Of a stretch of DNA of 64,000 nucleotides, positions 23,486-35,128 are shown piece by piece. Source of the stretch: Verrucomicrobiota bacterium (GTDB taxonomy: Bacteria > Verrucomicrobiota > Verrucomicrobiia > Limisphaerales > JACDHS01). The DNA is taken from assembly GCA_013820875.1 (NCBI GenBank), contig JACDHS010000002.1, positions 43,756 through 107,755 on the forward strand, given 5' to 3'. Made by a program: the position numbers and the translations under genes. Under the pieces are notes generated by a model. The model had not been told where the DNA came from and searched no databases. It saw only the letters and a list, made by a program, of their open reading frames with translations. Each line of letters opens with the position of its first letter. Positions within the stretch are counted from its first letter, which is position 1.

Positions 23486-24367
23486 TCATCCTGCAGAAAA
23501 CTCCCTGACGACTTCCGGCCAGTGTGATGGGATCCTCTCGAGAAGGCCTGCGCCATATAGTTCATCGAGTTTCGATTCGGGCCGATGAATGTAACCTATG
23601 TGACAACCGCACGTGGCCGCCGAGCAGAGTCGCGGCTTCAGGCAATCGGCAAAATGGGAATCGTAAATATTCCCAATCGGCCCCGGCAAAAAATGGCAGC
23701 GTCGAGCATCACCACTTCCGTCAACGGTAAACGTGGTTTCGCCGGCATGACACGGTCTATTGGCGCTCGGATGCCTCTGCAGGTTCCAATGGAAGTACGG
23801 ATCAACGGCCTGCAATCGATTAATTTCCGGCGGTTGGTAGTAGTTCGATTCTCGCTTGAACGCGTTAATCCAAAGATACACTTCCGGACGGAGTAACTTT
23901 CGGAGTTCTTCAATGGAGTCGAAATGTTCGCGGAGCCCGACCACCCCCACACTGTAACGGATTTTGGCGCTGTCGAGTTGACGGCAGCGCGTGATGAATT
24001 GGGCCACGGATATTTGCGAAGGGTGGAACGTGGTCCAAAGTGCAAGCGTGGTGCGATTCGCTTCCGTGAAATCGTCAATCGGAGCGCTGAGATTGGTTTG
24101 GATGGCGATGCGCGAAACGTTAGGAAGATGCGACAGGCGTGTCATCATTTCACGGTAATAGCGGTGAACGAGGGCTTCTCCCCATGGTGTGATTAAGATG
24201 CCAACCTGCCGTTGCTGCGCTTCAACCCAGGCGGCGAATCGCTCAAGTTCCATCCGATCTTTCTGAAGCTCAACCAGGCTGTTCGTTGTCTTTGCAAATG
24301 GGCAATAATCACACGAATAGTTGCAGCTCGAGAGAGAACCACGATAGAGAATGTTCCACGGGTTCAT
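23486..24367 (-). CDS. STM4011-family radical SAM protein
   Basis: MNPWNILYRGSLSSCNYSCDYCPFAK (CxxxCxxC); start overlaps the STM4012 stop by ATGA. Confidence 0.8.
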   Translation of the reverse strand: MNPWNILYRGSLSSCNYSCDYCPFAKTTNSLVELQKDRMELERFAAWVEAQQRQVGILITPWGEALVHRYYREMMTRLSHLPNVSRIAIQTNLSAPIDDFTEANRTTLALWTTFHPSQISVAQFITRCRQLDSAKIRYSVGVVGLREHFDSIEELRKLLRPEVYLWINAFKRESNYYQPPEINRLQAVDPYFHWNLQRHPSANRPCHAGETTFTVDGSGDARRCHFLPGPIGNIYDSHFADCLKPRLCSAATCGCHIGYIHRPESKLDELYGAGLLERIPSHWPEVVREFSAG

Positions 24368-25680
24368 GTTAGTTCGTAGACATCCATTCGTGAAGTAACG
24401 GCGTCCGAGTAAAGCCAAGGCCCAATGGTATCACTCCACACCATACCCTCGTCGTTCAAACGCAGAACTGAATTATCGTCGGTAGCCAGTCCCAGTTCGA
24501 AGAGTTCGAGCAACTGTGGAACATCTTCCTCCATGGAACTGCCGAAGCGGCGTTGGTACTCTCCATGAGAAATCCCTGCCGTGCGGAGAAGTGATTTGAT
24601 GACATAACGCAATTTCTGTTCGTGCTCATCGAGCATTACGCCGTAGTCCGCGCAAGCGTAACCAGGTGAATCCTGAACGTTGAACTTCTCAATGATTGAA
24701 CGGACGCCAGGTTGTCCGACTGCATACTCGCTGCTGTAATGAAGTGATTGTGTGTAGGAGCGAGCGCCGGGTCCCAACCCAACCATCCCATCCTCCTGGC
24801 AGCAGTAATCTGTTGCTCTATTAATATCCGCACGGCGAAAGAGTCGCATGGAGACCTGCCGATAGCCTGCAGCGAGAAGGAAGTCGCGCGCCTGCCGGTA
24901 AAGGTCACGGCGATGTTCAGCGGGACGTTTGCCGCTTCGGTCGAGGTTGGTGAGATTCCGTATGTACAGTGGATACAGGTAGAGCTCTTCGGGGCTCCAT
25001 TCCAGCGCACGCTCAAGACTGGTTTGCCAACGTTTGCTGTCTTGTCCTTCGTTGCCGTAGATCAAATCAATATTGAAGACAGGAAAGCCAGCCGCCTTGA
25101 TCATCCGGCATGCCTGTTCCAGTTGTCCTGCTGGTTGTGGTCGTTTCAGCGCAACCAGATCCTGCGGCACAAAACTCTGCACTCCCATACTGATGCGATC
25201 CACCCCCATGCATTTCAGCAAGACAAGTTTTTCGCGTGTGATCGTGCCGGGAGACACCTCAAAGGAGACAGGAATGCCTTGCCACTGAACCGGCCATGTG
25301 CCGCGCAATTTCGAGAAAAGCTGCTCAATCTCGCCCTCCGACAGAAAGCTCGGTGTTCCTCCGCCGAACGCTGCTTGTGCAATTCGTTCAGGTGCGATTG
25401 CTCCGGCGACAATTTCCGATTGGCGATGAATTGCTGCGATGGTTTGTTGCACTAATCCTGCACCGGGTTGCACGGTGGTGAACAGGTTACAGAAGCCACA
25501 TCGCATTTCGCAGAAGGGCAGATGCACGTAAAGGAAGAGCTTTTTCTTATCCTCAGTTTGCCAGGCTCGTTCGAGCGGCACGGGAGGATGGAGCGGGCCG
25601 TACGATGTCTTGTGCGGATAGCCGTAAGCGTAACCATCATATCCACCATCGCTCATTCGTTGTGCCAGTGGGCGTCTCAT
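24364..25680 (-). CDS. STM4012-family radical SAM protein (HemN-like)
   Basis: LYVHLPFCEMRCGFCNLFT, GGGTPSFL, GVQSFVPQDL; start overlaps the upstream stop by ATGA. Confidence 0.85.
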   Translation of the reverse strand: MRRPLAQRMSDGGYDGYAYGYPHKTSYGPLHPPVPLERAWQTEDKKKLFLYVHLPFCEMRCGFCNLFTTVQPGAGLVQQTIAAIHRQSEIVAGAIAPERIAQAAFGGGTPSFLSEGEIEQLFSKLRGTWPVQWQGIPVSFEVSPGTITREKLVLLKCMGVDRISMGVQSFVPQDLVALKRPQPAGQLEQACRMIKAAGFPVFNIDLIYGNEGQDSKRWQTSLERALEWSPEELYLYPLYIRNLTNLDRSGKRPAEHRRDLYRQARDFLLAAGYRQVSMRLFRRADINRATDYCCQEDGMVGLGPGARSYTQSLHYSSEYAVGQPGVRSIIEKFNVQDSPGYACADYGVMLDEHEQKLRYVIKSLLRTAGISHGEYQRRFGSSMEEDVPQLLELFELGLATDDNSVLRLNDEGMVWSDTIGPWLYSDAVTSRMDVYELT

Positions 25681-26459
25681 AACATGAATTCGGCGTAAGG
25701 GACCGTCCATACCACCTCGTGTGCCACGCGGTGCCCGACATAGCCATCCTCACCGTAGGCAGTGCCGTGATCCGAGCAGACGATTGCCAAAGTCGGAGCG
25801 CGTTGCTTGAGATGCTGGAAAAGCGGATGTAATGCCTGGTCAACGGCAACCAATGCAGCGGTGTGCGTCGCCAATGTATCGGGTCCGTGATCGGCTCCGT
25901 AAAACCAGTTCGGCTGGTGTATGGCGGAGATGTTGATAAACAAGAAAACCCGTTGATCTCCGGCGGCATCAACGGATCGGATCGCTTGCGCCACCTGATT
26001 CTCTGCGGAGCTGCGGCATGCAACTCCGAGATCTGGAGTCCAGTGTGCCTCGGAAAAGAGTCGCGGTAAAACACGAGCAAGTTCGTTTTGTTGATTGAAA
26101 AAGCCGGTTCCTCCGATGCAAATAGTGCGGTAATTCCGTGCTGACAAGGCTTCCGGAAGAGTTGCCTCTGCAAAGGTGAATGTTGTGTCAACGGTACTCA
26201 AACTTCCGGCGAATTCGGCGGCAAAGAGTCGAGGGTGTGGACCGGAAGCGAGTGGCGTGGGGAGAAACCCGGCAAAAAATGCGTGGTGAGCCGCATAGGT
26301 AAAGCTTCCGGGTGAGTGGCGTTCTTCCCACCCTTGCGGTGCGAGATAAGGTGCGAGTGTCTGAAGCCGACATTCCCGCCACGCCTGCTGAGCAGCATCA
26401 TAGCGCAGGGTATCCAGCGTGATGAATAAGATGTCCGCGTTGCCAATCAAGTGCTTCAT
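25677..26459 (-). CDS. STM4013-family sulfatase/phosphatase-like hydrolase
   Basis: ILFITLDTLRYDAAQQAW, TLAIVCSDHGTAYGEDGYVGHRVAHEVVWTVPY. Confidence 0.8.
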   Translation of the reverse strand: MKHLIGNADILFITLDTLRYDAAQQAWRECRLQTLAPYLAPQGWEERHSPGSFTYAAHHAFFAGFLPTPLASGPHPRLFAAEFAGSLSTVDTTFTFAEATLPEALSARNYRTICIGGTGFFNQQNELARVLPRLFSEAHWTPDLGVACRSSAENQVAQAIRSVDAAGDQRVFLFINISAIHQPNWFYGADHGPDTLATHTAALVAVDQALHPLFQHLKQRAPTLAIVCSDHGTAYGEDGYVGHRVAHEVVWTVPYAEFML

Positions 26460-27046
26460 TGCAAGTGTTCGCTGGCGATTATCGCGTTAACTCGACTTGC
26501 GTCGAGCACGCCATCAACAATGCGCGCTCGCATCCCGGCGCTCTTCGCGCCAGCCAGATCATTTTGATGATCTCCGATATAGAGGCAATGTTCAGGCGGT
26601 TCATTGAGAGCGCGGCTGGCGAACAGGAAAAGCCGGGGATCAGGTTTCGTCATACCCAATTCAGCGGAGACCCACAGGCATTCATTTGGAATTACTTCTG
26701 ACAAACCCGCTGCGCAAAATTTCCCGCGCTGATTTTCACTTCCACCGTTCGTGATGATACCCAGCTTAAAAAGTTTTGAGAGAGAGTGCAGTGCATTCAA
26801 TAGCTCTCGATCTGGCTGAATGCGTTCCGCGATCAGTCTTCCGAAGCTTTGTTGATCTATTGGAGTGCCCGCATACTCTTGCCATGTGGCAAATAGTTTC
26901 TGGCGATCGCCATAGCCGCCCTCGTCCAGCACGAGTAATTCCGCGCAAACAGCCGGGTTGCTAAATTGATCGCATACGCACTCGCGGACGGCCCTGTCGC
27001 GATCAATCAGCGTATTATCGAGGTCAAATAGCACAGCAGTGAGCAT
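26456..27046 (-). CDS. HAD-family hydrolase
   Basis: MLTAVLFDLDNTLIDRDRA, LGIITNGG, KPDPRLFLFA, YIGDHQNDLAGAKSAGMRA. Confidence 0.9.
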   Translation of the reverse strand: MLTAVLFDLDNTLIDRDRAVRECVCDQFSNPAVCAELLVLDEGGYGDRQKLFATWQEYAGTPIDQQSFGRLIAERIQPDRELLNALHSLSKLFKLGIITNGGSENQRGKFCAAGLSEVIPNECLWVSAELGMTKPDPRLFLFASRALNEPPEHCLYIGDHQNDLAGAKSAGMRARIVDGVLDASRVNAIIASEHLQ

Positions 27047-28136
27047 GGCAGGCTTTGGCAATGGCTGAATAGGCCGATTCCCCACGATCGGTCAAACGCG
27101 GGAGAAGATCGCCAAATGCATTGATCTCTCCGACGAAGGCTTTGTGCCGTCCATCGAGAAGAATATCAACGCCAGCGTAAAGAGAATCAGGAAAACAGGC
27201 CGCGGCCTTTTCCGCGAGAGTGAAAGCTGCTGCGAGGTTTTCGGAACCAATGGTTTTGCGCAACTCGGTTTCATCACCACGTTGGTTGCCCAGGTGGAGA
27301 TTGGTCATGGGGTGCCGACTTTGCCGAACCACCCAGTGCCGAGCTTCGCCTTCGATCACTAACACTCGCAAATCCACCGCTCCACCCGGGAGCGTTAGTT
27401 TCGGAATCCAGTGTTCGCGGATCATTCCCTGCGGCAGCAACACTCCGAGAATGAGCGCGATATCAGCGAGCGAGGTGTAGGTGCGAACTCCCAGACTGTT
27501 CACGAGAATAGCTTCGCTGCCTGAAGATTGAATCCTGATCGGCGCAATCAGTTGCTGATGCTGCGGTGTCCAACGAAGTGCGCAAACTCCGGAAGCAGAG
27601 GAGCCGTGTAGCGGCTTTAAAAACAAACGCCCGTTTGGTTTGGCGCACATCTGACTCCGAAAATCCTCAAAACTGGCAGGTGCCAGTTCGGACGGAGGCC
27701 GGGTCACTCCGTGATGCACAAACCGCTCGTGGCATTCCCACTTATCAAACATTACCGCAATGTCCGCGGGAGAATTAAGGCAGGGAATCTTACACTGTTC
27801 GATCCACTCGAGAACCTTGCAGAATCCGCGGTGAAATTCTTTTGGAAACGCGATTTCACCAAATTTCAGCATGAGATTTTCCGGACCGCCTCCGAGCGCG
27901 ATCAGCGCCTTTGTTACCGACTCATTTTCTCCGGGAGAATCAATTCGGAGCAGGTCAACATCGAGGTTCGCCAGCGATTCGGGATCGCGCAGCAACTCCT
28001 CGTACGAAAGGCAATTAGGCGAAGCATAGCCCAACTCCTGAACCGCCAATTGGAAGTCCCGAACTCTGCGGTTCTCTGGATTCCCGATCAGGCCAAGGCG
28101 AGGGCTACTCACCCACGGCGACAAAACGCCATTCAT
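27024..28136 (-). CDS. STM4014-family protein (ATP-grasp-like)
   Basis: Position within the STM4011-4015 operon; LFLKPLHGSSASGVCALRW and YAGVDILLDGRHKAFVGEINAFGDLLP resemble ATP-grasp motifs. Confidence 0.75.
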   Translation of the reverse strand: MNGVLSPWVSSPRLGLIGNPENRRVRDFQLAVQELGYASPNCLSYEELLRDPESLANLDVDLLRIDSPGENESVTKALIALGGGPENLMLKFGEIAFPKEFHRGFCKVLEWIEQCKIPCLNSPADIAVMFDKWECHERFVHHGVTRPPSELAPASFEDFRSQMCAKPNGRLFLKPLHGSSASGVCALRWTPQHQQLIAPIRIQSSGSEAILVNSLGVRTYTSLADIALILGVLLPQGMIREHWIPKLTLPGGAVDLRVLVIEGEARHWVVRQSRHPMTNLHLGNQRGDETELRKTIGSENLAAAFTLAEKAAACFPDSLYAGVDILLDGRHKAFVGEINAFGDLLPRLTDRGESAYSAIAKACHAHCCAI

Positions 28137-29310
28137 CATCTTCCTCCATGTCGCTGGGCTTTGAAGCATCCACCGTCAACGGCAATGCCTTCAATTGTTT
28201 GATCAAGTCAGCACTAATGTAGTTGAAGTGAAGGTTCAGTTTCTTGAGCGTTGGGCTGGCCGGCAACTTCAAAAGGGCGCGGGCACCTTCGTCCGTGAGC
28301 ATTCCGAGTGAGAAATCCAATGTTTCGATGCGACCGATCATCGGGCTATTCACCACCACGCCAGCTATCTCATCGGCTAGATGACTGTTGCGCAGACCGA
28401 GGTATTTCAATTTCGGAAATAGTTTACCGGATAAAATGGGTTGCAGATCCGCAACGTTATGATTGGCACCGTATTCATCGGTTCCGAGCCATAATTCCAA
28501 GTATTCGAGATTTGGAAAATTGGAGGTGCAGATGGAGCGGATCACACCGACATCGAGGCCACCGGTCTCGATGGCCAGAGCGCGAAGATTCTCGTGCTCG
28601 GGTGACTTCAATTCCAACCCCATACCACCCCTGGAGCGAAGCAATTGCAGTTTCGGAAAGGCTGCGAGCAACGGCGAGAGATCGCACTGATGGATCCAGG
28701 ATATCTCATTTTCCTCACTCGTGATATCACCAACATAAATTGCTGCAAGATTTGGCAGGCGATCTTTTTTGCTCGTGAGCGATTGAATGAGCTCTTCCGG
28801 GGTCCGCTCAGAATCATCTCCATGCCATGCGCCGATGACAAGCGCCATGGTCGAGAGAGCGGCGTCATTCGCAAGAAAATGTTCAAGGTTCGGAATTAAC
28901 TCGTCATTTTCCCAGTCGGTGCGAAACCGATAAACCACGTCTGCCCGGACTGGCTTTTCCATATCGTAATCCACCACCCGCTTGCCAATGAACGTTCCCG
29001 CATTCTCACCAATATCTTCCCGGCGATTAATGGATGAAAAAGCGATCAACGGAATGAGCACATTCGTCTCTCCTGCCGAACCAGCACCGTCGCTGACAGC
29101 AGCCTCGGCATCCACATATCCTTTACCCAGCTTTTCTTTGACGAGTTTGTCCGCTTCCTTTTTCGCAACCTCATCGGTTGGAAAAGATTTGGTAGAGCTT
29201 TGACCATCCGAGCCGGTGCGACCATAGGTGACCGTAAAAGAAGAGCCGGTGAGGTCGATGTTCCAGAACTTGCTGGACTTGGCGTCCATATAGACCAGTT
29301 TGCGATTCAT
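28105..29310 (-). CDS. WGR domain fused to STM4015-family leucine-rich-repeat protein
   Basis: N-terminus MNRKLVYMDAKSSKFWNIDLTGSSFTVTYGRTGSDGQSSTKSF (WGR). C-terminus ISWIHQCDLSPLLAAFPKLQLLRSRGGMGL...ETGGLDVGVIRSICTSNFPNLEYLELWLGTDEYG. Internal Met at 29310 avoids most of the overlap with the upstream gene. Confidence 0.85.
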   Translation of the reverse strand: MNRKLVYMDAKSSKFWNIDLTGSSFTVTYGRTGSDGQSSTKSFPTDEVAKKEADKLVKEKLGKGYVDAEAAVSDGAGSAGETNVLIPLIAFSSINRREDIGENAGTFIGKRVVDYDMEKPVRADVVYRFRTDWENDELIPNLEHFLANDAALSTMALVIGAWHGDDSERTPEELIQSLTSKKDRLPNLAAIYVGDITSEENEISWIHQCDLSPLLAAFPKLQLLRSRGGMGLELKSPEHENLRALAIETGGLDVGVIRSICTSNFPNLEYLELWLGTDEYGANHNVADLQPILSGKLFPKLKYLGLRNSHLADEIAGVVVNSPMIGRIETLDFSLGMLTDEGARALLKLPASPTLKKLNLHFNYISADLIKQLKALPLTVDASKPSDMEEDDEWRFVAVGE

Positions 29311-29321
29311 TGGTGTGTTTT

Positions 29322-30263
29322 TTAGGTTTCGATTTGCGGACGGTAAAGTGAAGGATCGTCGTATCCCGCCATCCATGCCGCAGCCTGGTGGCAAGTTTTC
29401 ATTTTTGGAGGGACCCGGAGAAAATATTGACGTCCGGTGGAGGGGCAATGACAGGAGAGCCCGACGAGCGGTTCGTCTTCCCGCAACTCTATACGAAGCA
29501 ATTGCCGGGCACCGCCACGATCCTGGTCCTCATCTATAACCTTGGCGCCTGCTTCCGCAGCGAACCGGAGGTAACCCATTCGCTCAATGATCACCCGGCG
29601 CAACTCGGCATTTTTCTCAGCGAGTGCTTCCTTTGCGGTTAATTCTTCCGGATGAAAAGCAATTCGTTCGTCAACACGGACTCCGCGCCAGCGCAACGGG
29701 GCTCCCTGTAAACTCGGCGGCAATCCCGTTATGCCGCTGCCGCCGACATCCACCCAACTGCTGACCGCAATGCCGTCCGGGATTTCTCCAAGCTGCGTAC
29801 AACCCGCAACATTCAATTGTGCCAGTCTCCCGATCCAGGTCGGAAGCGATCGGATACCAATGCAGTTGCGAAGAATAAGCGCGCCGTGATGAATCGTCCC
29901 TCTCGTCGGCCACATTTCGAAATGGGAGCACGCGGTCATGTCTAAAAACCATGTGCTGAGCCCTTCCGGCAAGGCACGTAGCGAGGGACAATCCCGCAGA
30001 CTGATGGATCCCGCAGTGAGTCCTTCCGGAAGGCTGGCGAGAGATTGGCAATTATCTAACACAAGGCGTCCGTCGATTCTTAGGTCTGCGGGCAGATTCT
30101 TGATCTGTGATTTGGTCGCATCGAGTTCATAGCAATGTAAACCGGGCGGGAGGCTCTCCTGCTGAAGTTCGGTTAAATCGAGCCGGCCTTTAACCCTTAC
30201 GGGACCGCACATGTCGCCCCGACGAATGGCGTCGCGGGCTTCTTCCGGAGAAAGAATAATCAC
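29322..30263 (-). CDS. Leucine-rich-repeat-like protein with DUF6745-like C-terminus
   Basis: Repeated SLxxLPEGL / LPxDLRxxGxL units; C-terminal ARQLLRIELREDEPLVGLSCHCPSTGRQYFLRVPP. Confidence 0.75.
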   Translation of the reverse strand: MIILSPEEARDAIRRGDMCGPVRVKGRLDLTELQQESLPPGLHCYELDATKSQIKNLPADLRIDGRLVLDNCQSLASLPEGLTAGSISLRDCPSLRALPEGLSTWFLDMTACSHFEMWPTRGTIHHGALILRNCIGIRSLPTWIGRLAQLNVAGCTQLGEIPDGIAVSSWVDVGGSGITGLPPSLQGAPLRWRGVRVDERIAFHPEELTAKEALAEKNAELRRVIIERMGYLRFAAEAGAKVIDEDQDRGGARQLLRIELREDEPLVGLSCHCPSTGRQYFLRVPPKMKTCHQAAAWMAGYDDPSLYRPQIET

Positions 30264-30278
30264 CGTAATCCTTTTGAA

Positions 30279-30584
30279 TTAATCTCGAACCACGCGAATT
30301 TCTTCCGGCGAATATTCGCGCTGGCGCCAGACCCGATAAAAGCCGCTCGGAAGGGTAATGGGACTGTGTTCCTCGTGGATAACAGTTACGGAAGGACCCC
30401 GCACATGTAAGAAAAGAGATCCCGGCGCCAGGTAAAGATCGGCATCTCCGGATTCTTTGATGCGGTGGGCGTGCCCTGTCACCTCGCCGTGAGCAAGAAT
30501 CGTGTGCGGTAATTTTTCGCCTCCGCTCGGCAATGCCTCTGCCTCCTCAATGATGACATCGCCATGTCGATATTGTCTGGCCAT
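30279..30584 (-). CDS. Small conserved RHGDV-type protein
   Basis: MARQYRHGDVIIEEAEALPSGG...LAHGEVTGHAHRI...VIHEEHSPITLPSGFYRVWRQREYSPEEIRVV; 15 nt upstream of the DUF6745-like gene. Confidence 0.75.
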   Translation of the reverse strand: MARQYRHGDVIIEEAEALPSGGEKLPHTILAHGEVTGHAHRIKESGDADLYLAPGSLFLHVRGPSVTVIHEEHSPITLPSGFYRVWRQREYSPEEIRVVRD

Positions 30585-30650: not shown

Positions 30651-32141
30651 TCATCCCATGGAACCGAAAATCTTGTTCCGTGCGTGTTCCCAGGCGGGGG
30701 CTTGTTTTTGGTTGGGAAGGAATTCCTTGAGTTCAGAAGAATTGCGGACGGCGGTTCGAAGTTCACCCAGGCTGCTGATCTGACCGGCAGCACGTAATTG
30801 CATCATGAGATTGCCCAGCACGGTGGCTTCCACTGGCCCGGCGAGCACAGGGCGTTGGCAGGCGTCGGCCGTGAATTGATTGAGCAGCTCGTTGCGTGAA
30901 CCGCCGCCGACGATGTGAATGACTTCCACCCGTTCGCCGGTCAACTCTTCCAGGCGCCCAAGCACAATGGCGTATTTCAAAGCGAGACTTTCCAGCGCGC
31001 AACGCACCAACTCGCCTTCGGTTTGCGGCACCGGTTGACCTGTCCGACCGCAAAAATCCTGGATGGCGCGCGGCATGTCAGGAGGATTAAGAAAGCTCGG
31101 ATCATCGGGATCCACCAGGGAACGGAGCGCTGGCGCGGACTCAGCCATGGTTACCAGTTCAGCGTAGCTCAGTTCACCCCCAGACGCGTCGAAGGCCCGT
31201 TTGCAACGTTGCACGAGCCAAAGGCCCATGATGTTTTTCAACAGGCGATAGGTGCCGTCCACTCCCCCTTCATTTGTGAAATTGAGTTCCGCCGCGCGCG
31301 CCGAAAGTTTTGCCTCCTGCACTTCGGCGCCCAGTAGGGACCAGGTGCCCGAACTGATGTAAGCCCAATTGGCCTTGCCGGTGTTGGTTGTCGGAACACC
31401 AACCACTGCGGAACCGGTATCGTGCGCGGCGACGGCGACAACTTCCACCGACTGCAACCCGGTGGAGCGCGCAACGGAATCTTGCAATGGCCCGAGTTTC
31501 ACTCCGGGCATGATCACTTCGGGGAACATGGAGGTGGGCAGATCGAACCGACGCAACAACCCGGAAGCCCACTGCCGTTTCACCGCATTGCAGCATTGAG
31601 TGGTGGTGGCGTTGGTGAATTCAGCGACTTTGCGGCCGGTTAAACACCAATTCAGGAAATCGGGGATGGTGAGAAAACAATCTGCTGCTTCCAATAGTTC
31701 AGGGCTTTTTTTCTGCAACGCAAGCAGTTGGTAAAGCGTGTTGAATTCCATGAACTGAAGGCCGGTCTCTGCAAAAATATCCTCGCGGGAGACCCGCTTG
31801 AACGCTTCATCCATTACTCCGCGGGTGCGTTCGTCCCGATAATGAAACGGAAGCCCGAGCAGTTCTCCCGTTTTCGATAGCAGCACAAAATCCACGCCCC
31901 ATGTATCCACCCCGACCGAAACAATGGATTTGCCGTAGCGTTTTGCTGCCAGCGTCAACCCCTGCTGAATCTCCCCCCATAGCCGCAGCAGATCCCACCG
32001 TAGCGTTCCATTGATCGTCACCGCGCCATTGGGAAAGCGATGCACCTCTTCGAGAGTCATGCGGTTGCCGTCCCAAAGTCCTGCCATCACCCGACCGCTC
32101 TCCGCGCCGAGATCGATTCCGAGGAAAACTTTTTCGTTCAT
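30651..32141 (-). CDS. rhaB: Rhamnulokinase (FGGY family)
   Basis: [60 protein letters not shown]. Confidence 0.92.
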
Positions 32142-32148
32142 GGTTTTT

Positions 32149-32236
32149 ACCGCTAATCAGCGCTCATTTTCGCTAATGGGATGGGGACAATTGGACGCCG
32201 GTCTTTATCAGCGCAGATTAGCGAAGATCAGCGGTT
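32149..32236. repeat. Short copy of the ccgctaat dispersed inverted-repeat element
   Basis: accgctaatcagcgctcattttcgctaat ... atcagcgcagattagcgaagatcagcggt (imperfect inverted). Confidence 0.7.
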
Positions 32237-35128
32237 CAAAAGGCTTACGAAACGATAATCACCGGAGCCGACTTCGAGGATCGCGCGATCGTTTTCCACG
32301 CGAAGGAACTTCACCCCTGCAGCGTCCTTCAGCGGTTTGCCACCTTCCGTGATTGCGTCCGCAGCACGTGTCGGCAATGAAACGATGGCGGTCGTGTTCG
32401 CGGGAATCGTGACATTCAGTTCGAAATTGCCGTTGTTCATTTTCCACGCGCTCGTGATTTTTCCACGGGCAGAACCGTACTCGGCTCGCACCCAGTTCAT
32501 CTGCGGCGCGTTTTTGGCCGTCGTTGCGTTTGACGAAGGGGGATTCGGCTGGATGAAGATTCTTTTGTAACCTGAGCCATCGGTATCAATGCCAGCCAAT
32601 ACACGATAGGCCCATTCCATCACTGCACCGAAGGCGTAATGGCTGAAGCTGTTCATGGCAGCGTTTTGTTTGCCGTCGGCTCCATTGAACCCATGCTCTT
32701 CGGTGTAGCTGTCCCACCGTTCCCAAATTGTGTTGGCTCCATTCACCACCGCGTAACCCCAACTCGGAAACTGGCGGCTTTGGAACAGTTGCACCGCGAG
32801 ATCATGCTGACCATTAGCGCTGAGTGCCGGGAGCAACGCGCGTGTGCCAAGAAAACCGGTCGCCATGCGATTGCCATTTTTGGAGATTTTTTCCGCGAGA
32901 GTATTTGCCGCCCTGGTCACCTTGTCTTCCGGAAGCAATCCGACCCAGAGCGCCAGGACGTATGCGGTTTGTGTGTCCACTTTCAATGTGCCGTCGTTGC
33001 TGACATAGGCTTTGTTGAACGCGGTTTTTGTTTTGGCAAATCGCTTGCGGTAATTTTCCGCTTCACCCTTGCGTCCGAGCGCATCGGCCATTTCGCTCAT
33101 CATGGTGCAAACCAATGCGTGGTATGCGGTATCGATGAACTCAATAGGTGTCTTTTCATTTACATTCAGCCAATCACCCCAGGTGTTGCCAATGCTCTTG
33201 CCGAGACCGTCCGGTGTCGTGTTCGCAGCACGCCAATCCATAAAGCGCGTCATCGAATCCCAATGCCGATTCAGCATGCGTGTGTCGCCGTAGACTTTCC
33301 ACACTGTCCAGGGACAGATCACCCCGGCATCGGTCCAGGCGGTTCCAAACGTTTTCTTCGGCTCCCCGTGACCCATCGGATATGGCGCATAATCCGGGTA
33401 AGCGCCAAAGGAGCGTTGCGCCTCTTCAAGGTCATCGAACCATTTTGTAAAGAAAGCGGCGACGTCGGCGTTAAAGGTGGCGGTGCGAATGTAGGTCTGC
33501 GCATCGCCGGTCCAGCCAAGGCGTTCGTCGCGTTGCGGGCAATCCGTCGGGATCTCGATGAAGTTGGCGCGCTGAGTCCATTGCGCGTTTTGAGCGAGTT
33601 TGTTAATTACGTCGTCCGCACATTCGAACGACCCGACGAGCGGCGTGTCGTTGTGCAGTACCAGGCCGGTTACCATATCTGGGGCAGGCTTGGATGAGAG
33701 GCCGGTGATTTCGACGTATTGAAAGCCGTGATAGGTGAAGCTCGGTTGCCATGTCTCAGGCGCGCCAGTATCACTGCCGCGCAGGGTGTAGAAATCCGTG
33801 GCACGCGCACGACGCAAGTTCTCGGTCATGAGCCGTCCGTCAGGATGCAGCATTTCACCGAAACGAAGCTGCAGCTTTGTTCCGGCAGGGCCGCTCACTT
33901 TCAGGCGAATGTTCCCGGCAAAGTTCTGGCCCAGGTCGAAGATGTAAACGCCTTTCGAAGGTTCCGTGATTCGGCGTGTTTGTAATTCTTCAGTTACCCG
34001 GATAGGCGGCGCAGTGTAGGCCTGCATTTTGGGCGGGCGCTGGAAGCCGAGCTCCACTTCGCGATTGCCTTCGTTATCCGAGAAAGTGGCTTTGGTGCTG
34101 CCGTTCTCCTGAGCGCGGATGGCAGCTTGCCACTTCCACTCTTTGGCACCATCCGGTGTGCACCAATCGTCTCGTTGCCGCCGTGCGTCGTAGGCTTCAC
34201 CCATGATCATATCCGCTTCACGAATGGGACCATCGTTAGTGACGTTCCAGGAGGAATCTGTCCCAATGATCTCACGTGTGCCGTCGGAATATTCGATCAC
34301 CAACTGGGCGAGGAGCGCCGGAGTTTTGCCGTAAAAATAGCGACCCACCTTGTTCGGACCGTAGCCCACGAGCAAACCGTATCCGACGTAGCCGGAATAC
34401 CAGCCTTCAGCCACAATGAACCCGATGGCGTTCTGGCCGGCTTTAACAAAACCGGTCACATCGTGAGTGGTGTAATAGGCGCGTTGCAGATAATCGGCCC
34501 AACCCGGTTCGAACCAGGCATCGCCGACACGTTGCCCATTCACGTGCAGCTCAAAAATTCCAAGGGCCGATCCGTAAACGGTGGCGCGTTTGATTTCCTT
34601 TTTGGTCTTAAACTGCTTTCGATAATGACTGGCGGGAGGGAGGAAGAGGGAGTCACGCTTTGTATGCAGCGGCGAGGTGTCCTTGTAGGAAATCCACTCC
34701 GCCTTCCAATCTTCCGGCTTGAGCAAACCCATGCTCCAGGAGGCGGGTTCGCTCCACGCGGATTCTTTGCCATCCTTTTCCCACACTTTCAGTTTCCAAA
34801 AGGCGCGTTGTCCGGAAGCGAGCGGTTTGCCGGCATACGCAATGTTCAATGTTTCATCACTGGCCACCTTGCCGGAATCCCAAAGATCACCCTGGTTGGA
34901 TTGAAGTTTCTTTTCGTCACTGGCGACGAGGAGCCGATACGCCGTCTGACGTTGACCGCGCTGTTCCGATTCCACCCGCCACGAAACGCGAGGTGCGGAA
35001 GCTTCGATTCCAACTGGGTTGACCAACCATTCGGTGCGCAACTCAACGGGCTGGAGTGCAGCATGAGCGGCGGATGAACAAATGAGCGCGAGCATTCCGA
35101 TGCAAAAGATTTTCTTCATGAGCGACAA
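32228..35128 (-). CDS. Alpha-L-rhamnosidase (GH78)
   Basis: Signal peptide; ETWQPSFTYHGFQYVEITG, NFIEIPTDCPQRDERLGWTGDAQ, TIWERWDSYTEEHGFN. Confidence 0.92.
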   Translation of the reverse strand: MSLMKKIFCIGMLALICSSAAHAALQPVELRTEWLVNPVGIEASAPRVSWRVESEQRGQRQTAYRLLVASDEKKLQSNQGDLWDSGKVASDETLNIAYAGKPLASGQRAFWKLKVWEKDGKESAWSEPASWSMGLLKPEDWKAEWISYKDTSPLHTKRDSLFLPPASHYRKQFKTKKEIKRATVYGSALGIFELHVNGQRVGDAWFEPGWADYLQRAYYTTHDVTGFVKAGQNAIGFIVAEGWYSGYVGYGLLVGYGPNKVGRYFYGKTPALLAQLVIEYSDGTREIIGTDSSWNVTNDGPIREADMIMGEAYDARRQRDDWCTPDGAKEWKWQAAIRAQENGSTKATFSDNEGNREVELGFQRPPKMQAYTAPPIRVTEELQTRRITEPSKGVYIFDLGQNFAGNIRLKVSGPAGTKLQLRFGEMLHPDGRLMTENLRRARATDFYTLRGSDTGAPETWQPSFTYHGFQYVEITGLSSKPAPDMVTGLVLHNDTPLVGSFECADDVINKLAQNAQWTQRANFIEIPTDCPQRDERLGWTGDAQTYIRTATFNADVAAFFTKWFDDLEEAQRSFGAYPDYAPYPMGHGEPKKTFGTAWTDAGVICPWTVWKVYGDTRMLNRHWDSMTRFMDWRAANTTPDGLGKSIGNTWGDWLNVNEKTPIEFIDTAYHALVCTMMSEMADALGRKGEAENYRKRFAKTKTAFNKAYVSNDGTLKVDTQTAYVLALWVGLLPEDKVTRAANTLAEKISKNGNRMATGFLGTRALLPALSANGQHDLAVQLFQSRQFPSWGYAVVNGANTIWERWDSYTEEHGFNGADGKQNAAMNSFSHYAFGAVMEWAYRVLAGIDTDGSGYKRIFIQPNPPSSNATTAKNAPQMNWVRAEYGSARGKITSAWKMNNGNFELNVTIPANTTAIVSLPTRAADAITEGGKPLKDAAGVKFLRVENDRAILEVGSGDYRFVSLLNR

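Follow-up and report, generated by a model that had tools for sequence, protein, structure and literature searches.

In the LysW amino-group carrier systems, the substrate becomes attached through its amino group to the gamma-carboxyl of the Glu that ends the carrier and its EDWGE tail, and a GSWGR motif in the ligase ArgX recognises this tail (PMC10433800). Here we describe an eight-gene operon of a Verrucomicrobiota bacterium that is built on the STM4011–STM4015 families. It lies in a stretch of 64,000 nucleotides of contig JACDHS010000002.1 (positions 43,756 to 107,755), referred to as the window. The five families (NCBIfam NF038073-NF038076 and NF006067) are described by name only; the window adds WGR, HAD, RHGDV and DUF6745 members. 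STM4011-4015 are spread over many phyla, yet the proteins carry only placeholder names. The initial annotation regarded the operon as uncharacterised, and we likewise found no published function for STM4011-4015: literature mentions merely list STM4013 or STM4015, although most subscription journals were outside the search and prior work may exist. We propose, with a probability of about one half, that the repeat protein STM4015 serves as a carrier or substrate to whose terminal Glu an amine is ligated by STM4014; the radical S-adenosylmethionine (SAM) enzymes, STM4013 and sometimes a HAD hydrolase would work on the tail of STM4015 or on the group tethered there.

In the window, STM4015 is a protein of 401 residues in which a WGR domain (PF05406, 4e-17) is fused to the STM4015 leucine-rich repeat (LRR) region (NF038076, 310 bits against a cut-off of 275, 9e-93). 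It is encoded at 28105..29310 on the minus strand; the most likely start is ATG 29310 and not TTG 29448, which falls inside the DUF6745 gene. The protein ends in DDEWRFVAVGE. The codons of the last seven residues, R-F-V-A-V-G-E, occupy 28108..28128 (minus strand) just before the TAG stop and constitute the proposed modification site.

The same ending recurs across a survey of 88 loci, comprising 80 loci from many phyla fetched by an STM4013 query, seven plasmid loci and the window. A terminal Glu stands directly at the stop in 115 of 118 STM4015 copies. No fixed last residue is found in the other core proteins: Glu ends only 1-4 of the 79-88 copies of STM4011, STM4013 and STM4014, and none of STM4012. 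The seven-residue consensus is R-[YF]-x-[AS]-[VL]-[GSA]-E, and among the 115 Glu-ending copies the Arg is present in 104/115, the Tyr or Phe in 109/115, the Val or Leu in 109/115 and the Glu in 115/115. The 16 residues preceding the tail are 40% Asp/Glu, compared with 15% elsewhere. Between the final LRR column and the C-terminus lie 40 to 56 residues, a variation that would be expected of a flexible linker. In one STM4015 paralogue (L141:13143-14402, minus strand), two tail motifs occur in tandem, RYYALNE and, as the C-terminus, RYYPLGE.

In the window, STM4014 starts at a GTG that falls within the tail codons, which would fit a tail conserved merely because its codons overlap the STM4014 start or ribosome-binding site. 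We reject this origin, whose probability is negligible. The tail is not a translation-start artefact, because 48 of the 51 STM4015 copies that are not directly followed by STM4014 still have the terminal Glu, and codon choice within the tail varies freely among synonyms (GAG or GAA for Glu, six codons for Arg).

A cyanobacterial locus (L046) encodes a pentapeptide-repeat protein (Pfam 5e-25; L046:5479-5988, minus strand) that ends DDEIGEHRYELVGE / HRYELVGE, from a gene just upstream of two STM4015 genes. In this one example, the tail appears to be a modular element borne by another repeat scaffold. Eleven more cyanobacterial loci yielded no further non-LRR protein with the tail, and the only other match to the tail pattern among 12,413 non-core open reading frames (ORFs) was an antisense ORF. 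Elsewhere in the cyanobacteria (L029, L037, L041, L042, L022), several STM4015 paralogues and neighbouring proteins have an N-terminal repeat domain (DAVLGG...GLEGVQ...) in common; some of the neighbours with this domain, in or around the operons, end in WD40-like sequence.

STM4014 (27024..28112, minus strand; 362 residues from the GTG) matches NF038074 with 331 bits against a cut-off of 175. Its AlphaFold2 (AF2) model, computed from 49 aligned proteins, has a mean predicted local distance difference test (pLDDT) score of 95.5 and a predicted template modelling (pTM) score of 0.93. The top seven PDB matches in a Foldseek search are ArgX:LysW, LysX/ArgX with LysW-gamma-aminoadipate, LysX, and ArgX with ADP, with D-Ala ligases, PsnB and RimK:RpsF closely behind. 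A sequence profile compared with the PDB also ranks LysX first (E 7e-7), with RimK next. The rimK_fam model finds 36 of the 49 STM4014 proteins at E<=0.01 but with scores under the RimK family cut-off, and the window protein scores 11.7 bits against LysX_arch, not reaching its cut-off of 275.6. The ATP-grasp catalytic residues (as described in PMC4431377) are kept as K124, K166, D316 and E329-x-N331, and a conserved GSSASG loop starts at the position of the LysX GS. Judged by the model, STM4014 looks most like an ATP-grasp ligase of the LysX/ArgX/RimK kind.

In 78 of 80 loci the gene for STM4014 directly neighbours that for STM4015 in the same orientation, and the pair persists where it is split from STM4013-4011 (L045, L050, L075, L094). 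An apparent natural STM4015-STM4014 fusion in L070 was an artefact from runs of N. Because an enzyme of this fold group adjoins a protein with a near-invariant C-terminal Glu, the analogy suggests that STM4014 performs a LysX-type reaction on the terminal Glu of STM4015. The initial annotation saw an operon of modification chemistry, a description that is supported; its reading of the genes missed both the Glu tail of STM4015 and the LysX/RimK-like character of STM4014, which together allow a likely substrate to be named.

The remaining core enzymes could act on the same tail. STM4011 (23486..24367, minus strand, most likely start ATG 24367; NF038073, 384 bits against a cut-off of 200, 5e-115) has the radical SAM CxxxCxxC motif at C15, C19 and C22, and five further invariant Cys at C206, C224, C248, C253 and C255. 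Its best PDB match is SkfB (E 0.003), in the SPASM-like region; the Pfam SPASM model reaches E 0.11, below cut-off. The nearest solved structures to the HemN-like radical SAM enzyme STM4012 (24364..25710, minus strand; NF006067, 526 bits against 380, 7e-158) are HemN (1olt) and the methyltransferase NocN (9p2u). STM4013 (25677..26459, minus strand; NF038075, 376 bits against 250; Pfam Sulfatase/alkaline-phosphatase superfamily, 5e-8) aligns with the Xanthomonas-type nucleotide pyrophosphatase/phosphodiesterase (NPP) over the catalytic Thr region, and T54, D16, D230 and H231 are invariant. Because Thr (T54, the predicted nucleophile) occupies the nucleophile position, a role of STM4013 as phosphodiesterase or phosphatase is more probable than one as sulfatase. 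The HAD-IA hydrolase (26456..27085, minus strand; PF00702, 3e-19) is nearest to nucleotidase-like and phosphatase subfamilies, all below their cut-offs (TIGR02254, 2e-16).

These enzymes also bring to mind the ribosomally synthesized and post-translationally modified peptides (RiPPs). The LRR protein would then be a giant leader and the tail a core peptide, whose residues would be crosslinked or altered by the radical SAM enzymes while STM4014 formed a graspetide-like side-chain macrocycle. The top fold matches of STM4014 include PsnB, a graspetide ligase; the SPASM-like Cys cluster of STM4011 finds its best match in a sactipeptide maturase, SkfB, and STM4012 is close to NocN, a RiPP enzyme. 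Loci carry one to four STM4015 copies, and the tandem motif in L141 would suit a precursor as well. We nevertheless consider this improbable. Of 115 tails, 49 contain none of Ser, Thr and Lys among their seven final residues, and Lys occurs there in no tail at all. A conserved nucleophile for a macrolactone or macrolactam is thus missing, which makes a graspetide-like cycle less likely. A leader of about 300 residues would be unusual. Clustering of all other neighbours in the 88-locus survey gave no widely shared partner beyond RHGDV, and neither a peptidase nor a transporter.

In the carrier proposal, STM4015 would be a ribosomally made carrier, or a precursor, whose working part is the tail R-[YF]-x-[AS]-[VL]-[GSA]-Glu-COOH on its flexible acidic linker, with the LRR domain (joined to WGR in the window but not in most loci) serving recognition or placement. 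STM4014 would activate a carboxylate of the terminal Glu and couple an amine to it. The SPASM-like STM4011 and the HemN-like STM4012 would then alter the tail or the tethered group, and STM4013, as a Thr-type phosphodiesterase or phosphatase, together with the HAD protein where present, would cleave off a phosphate or nucleotide group or else set the product free. The gene set with its conservation and co-occurrence, the tail, and the fold and catalytic residues of the ligase are what we observe; modification of the tail, use of the terminal Glu by STM4014 and this order of steps are what we infer.

Several observations weigh against this proposal. STM4014 is about 14-18% identical to LysX, and the fold search scores D-Ala-D-Ala ligases and inositol-phosphate kinases almost as high. 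Three STM4015 copies lack the terminal Glu: L043 through an apparent stop-loss, L065 through an altered end, and L041, which ends in Gly. The Salmonella STM4015 has the Glu and the acidic linker without the R-[YF]. The tail on a non-LRR scaffold is a single example. Release is unexplained, because no peptidase or transporter is conserved nearby.

The conserved tail could also be a docking signal instead of a substrate. Short C-terminal motifs often act as docking tags; here the tail would recruit the operon enzymes or a target, the enzymes would make a separate small molecule, and STM4015 would be a scaffold or sensor. The diversity of N-terminal additions on STM4015 (WGR, HEAT-like, none) suggests scaffolding of this kind. 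The near-invariance of the terminal carboxylate, next to a ligase from a fold group that acts on such carboxylates, argues against it, and we regard a tail used for docking only as unlikely.

The carrier proposal has a bolder form, which we put forward tentatively and with the odds against it. LRR proteins and at least one pentapeptide-repeat protein, sharing the tail R-[YF]-x-[AS]-V-x-Glu, would represent a new class of ribosomal carriers, on which a LysX-like ligase and two radical SAM enzymes build a group. Because no protease or exporter is conserved, the repeat protein, once modified, may itself be the end product; its LRRs would choose a target, and its tail would be an inbuilt cofactor or warhead.

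The complete core of five genes occurs in 76 of the 88 loci; some incomplete loci are truncated by contig ends and some have STM4013 alone. Their co-occurrence, on which the initial annotation had made its reading depend, is far above chance. The order 4015-4014-4013-4012-4011 is kept, neighbouring pairs being adjacent in 78/80, 74/82, 79/82 and 77/79 loci, respectively. Hosts include Salmonella, Streptomyces, cyanobacteria, Deinococcus and Planctomycetes, and copies reside on plasmids or megaplasmids in Deinococcus, Streptomyces, Methylobacterium, Paenibacillus and Salmonella. Sporadic transfer of the set is suggested by its rarity in the host's own phylum, where STM4015 scores above cut-off in only 4 of 390 genomes.

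STM4013 is also encoded solo, with the rest of the operon not nearby, in L040, L074 and L095. L014:8962-9756 and many Streptomyces genomes hold a further STM4013 subfamily (scoring about 330-360 bits in the latter) that shows no co-occurrence with RHGDV. On an S. albidoflavus plasmid, a divergent STM4013 gene adjoins NUDIX and 'lasso peptide biosynthesis B2' genes, and STM4015, STM4014, STM4012 and STM4011 are absent.

The members outside the core that the initial annotation had singled out proved to be accessory: the core recurs, while HAD is found in 11/88 loci (in ten of these between STM4014 and STM4013), linked DUF6745 in 37/88, and WGR on STM4015 in a minority. The full set of the window, the core plus WGR, HAD, RHGDV and DUF6745, is also seen in Verrucomicrobia and Planctomycetes relatives.

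The WGR domain had been taken as a sign of nucleic-acid or damage sensing. Such a system, triggered by DNA damage or phage through WGR, draws on the fusion of WGR to STM4015 in the window and in several other phyla (8 loci by Pfam and a few more by sequence). Most loci have no WGR, among them those of Salmonella, Deinococcus, Streptomyces and cyanobacteria; with WGR an extra confined to a minority, the sensing of damage or phage is not supported as the core function. PADLOC gives weak partial matches only and no convincing defence family, there are no conserved defence neighbours, and a search of a phage collection with DUF6745 returned no match. We therefore find the sensing role unsupported and very unlikely for the system.

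The small RHGDV protein (30279..30584, minus strand, 101 residues) has no family match in Pfam, NCBIfam or PADLOC. Its invariant residues in an alignment with relatives are H38, H40, H70, H73, E34, E72 and D101, the latter being a C-terminal Asp in V-x-D, and a metal site is possible. The AF2 model is beta-rich (pLDDT 87.6, with low confidence at residues 95-101), and a fold search of the PDB found no solved relative. Copies were counted only if next to DUF6745 and carrying a QRE[YF] motif. RHG profile matches antisense to STM4015 were spurious and came from antisense ORFs of high-GC genomes in the profile.

The DUF6745 protein (29322..30263, minus strand, 313 residues) has an LRR-like N-terminal half, and its Pfam match (PF20530, 8e-21) is confined to the C-terminal 123 residues (191-313). 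An RHGDV gene stands beside it in 36 of the 37 loci in which it is linked to the core. Plasmids of D. ficus and Skermanella have the two together with no core nearby. Of 33 genomes with the core and no linked DUF6745, 24 carry no DUF6745 anywhere. Among 151 genomes of the family to which the Streptomyces locus L061 belongs, RHGDV and operon-type STM4013 occur together in 62, RHGDV only in 5 and STM4013 only in 10 (Fisher p = 2e-25, ignoring shared ancestry). RHGDV and DUF6745 are thus an optional, separable and strongly associated module. Operon-linked DUF6745 proteins (n=39, including that of the window) have a C-terminal motif of their own, Y-x-P-x-x-[EQ]-T, with Thr last in 35/39. On the D. 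ficus plasmid (L097:7030-10263), RHGDV and DUF6745 are directly followed by a VWA-domain gene, with no STM4011-4015 in the fetched stretch.

The eight genes of the window had been described as a same-strand operon, and all eight ORFs are indeed open on the minus strand, from 30584 down to 23486, tightly packed in the order RHGDV, DUF6745, WGR-STM4015, STM4014, HAD, STM4013, STM4012, STM4011. The claimed STM4011-4015 identities hold as well, all five proteins exceeding the curated NCBIfam cut-offs. Gaps of 15 nucleotides (RHGDV/DUF6745) and 11 nucleotides (DUF6745/WGR-STM4015) precede a series of overlaps: 8 nucleotides for STM4015/4014, 62 for 4014/HAD, 4 for HAD/4013, 34 for 4013/4012 and 4 for 4012/4011, figures that depend partly on the choice of start codons. 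Upstream on the same strand, 66 nucleotides from the RHGDV gene, rhamnulokinase-like and alpha-L-rhamnosidase-like genes occupy 30651-35128; their co-transcription with the RHGDV gene is possible.

Among known systems, the amino-group carriers (LysW with LysX or ArgX; PMC10433800, PMC9303977) likewise combine a protein whose acidic stretch leads to a C-terminal Glu with an ATP-grasp ligase of the LysX kind encoded alongside it. The ligase has the LysX/ArgX fold, two of its nearest structures having been solved with LysW, as well as the catalytic residues. Unlike LysW, STM4015 is an LRR protein that matches STM4015 and LRR models and no LysW (zinc-ribbon) model, and it ends in R-[YF]-x-[AS]-V-x-E where LysW has EDWGE. 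STM4014 stays far below the LysX_arch cut-off, and where those systems have Lys/Arg biosynthesis enzymes, this operon has radical SAM enzymes and a phosphodiesterase-type hydrolase. Glutamylation of ribosomal protein S6 by RimK offers another ATP-grasp enzyme that extends a protein C-terminus, but STM4014 is below the RimK family cut-off, the target protein is another, and radical SAM enzymes are linked to it here.

The pearlins (TglA/PEARL, 3-thia-amino acids; PMC9303977) also assemble a small molecule at the C-terminal end of a ribosomally made carrier and employ radical SAM enzymes. The operon contains neither a PEARL enzyme (LanB-type, aminoacyl-tRNA-dependent) nor a release protease: none of the eight window proteins matches the LanB-type family in Pfam or NCBIfam, and no other neighbours are conserved. 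Graspetides (PsnB) and SPASM radical SAM RiPPs (SkfB) share the ATP-grasp fold, a SPASM-like radical SAM enzyme and a substrate peptide at a protein C-terminus, but the STM4015 tail has no conserved Ser/Thr/Lys acceptor, and a small precursor peptide, peptidase and exporter are absent. The system resembles the amino-group carriers and the pearlins in logic and is a member of neither, because it has no LysW fold or EDWGE tail and no PEARL enzyme. If the tail is the substrate, a long-uncharacterised cluster gains a concrete, testable role with a named substrate and modified residue, and a new carrier-protein chemistry would unite, on the scaffold of a repeat protein, ligation of the LysX type and radical SAM enzymes.

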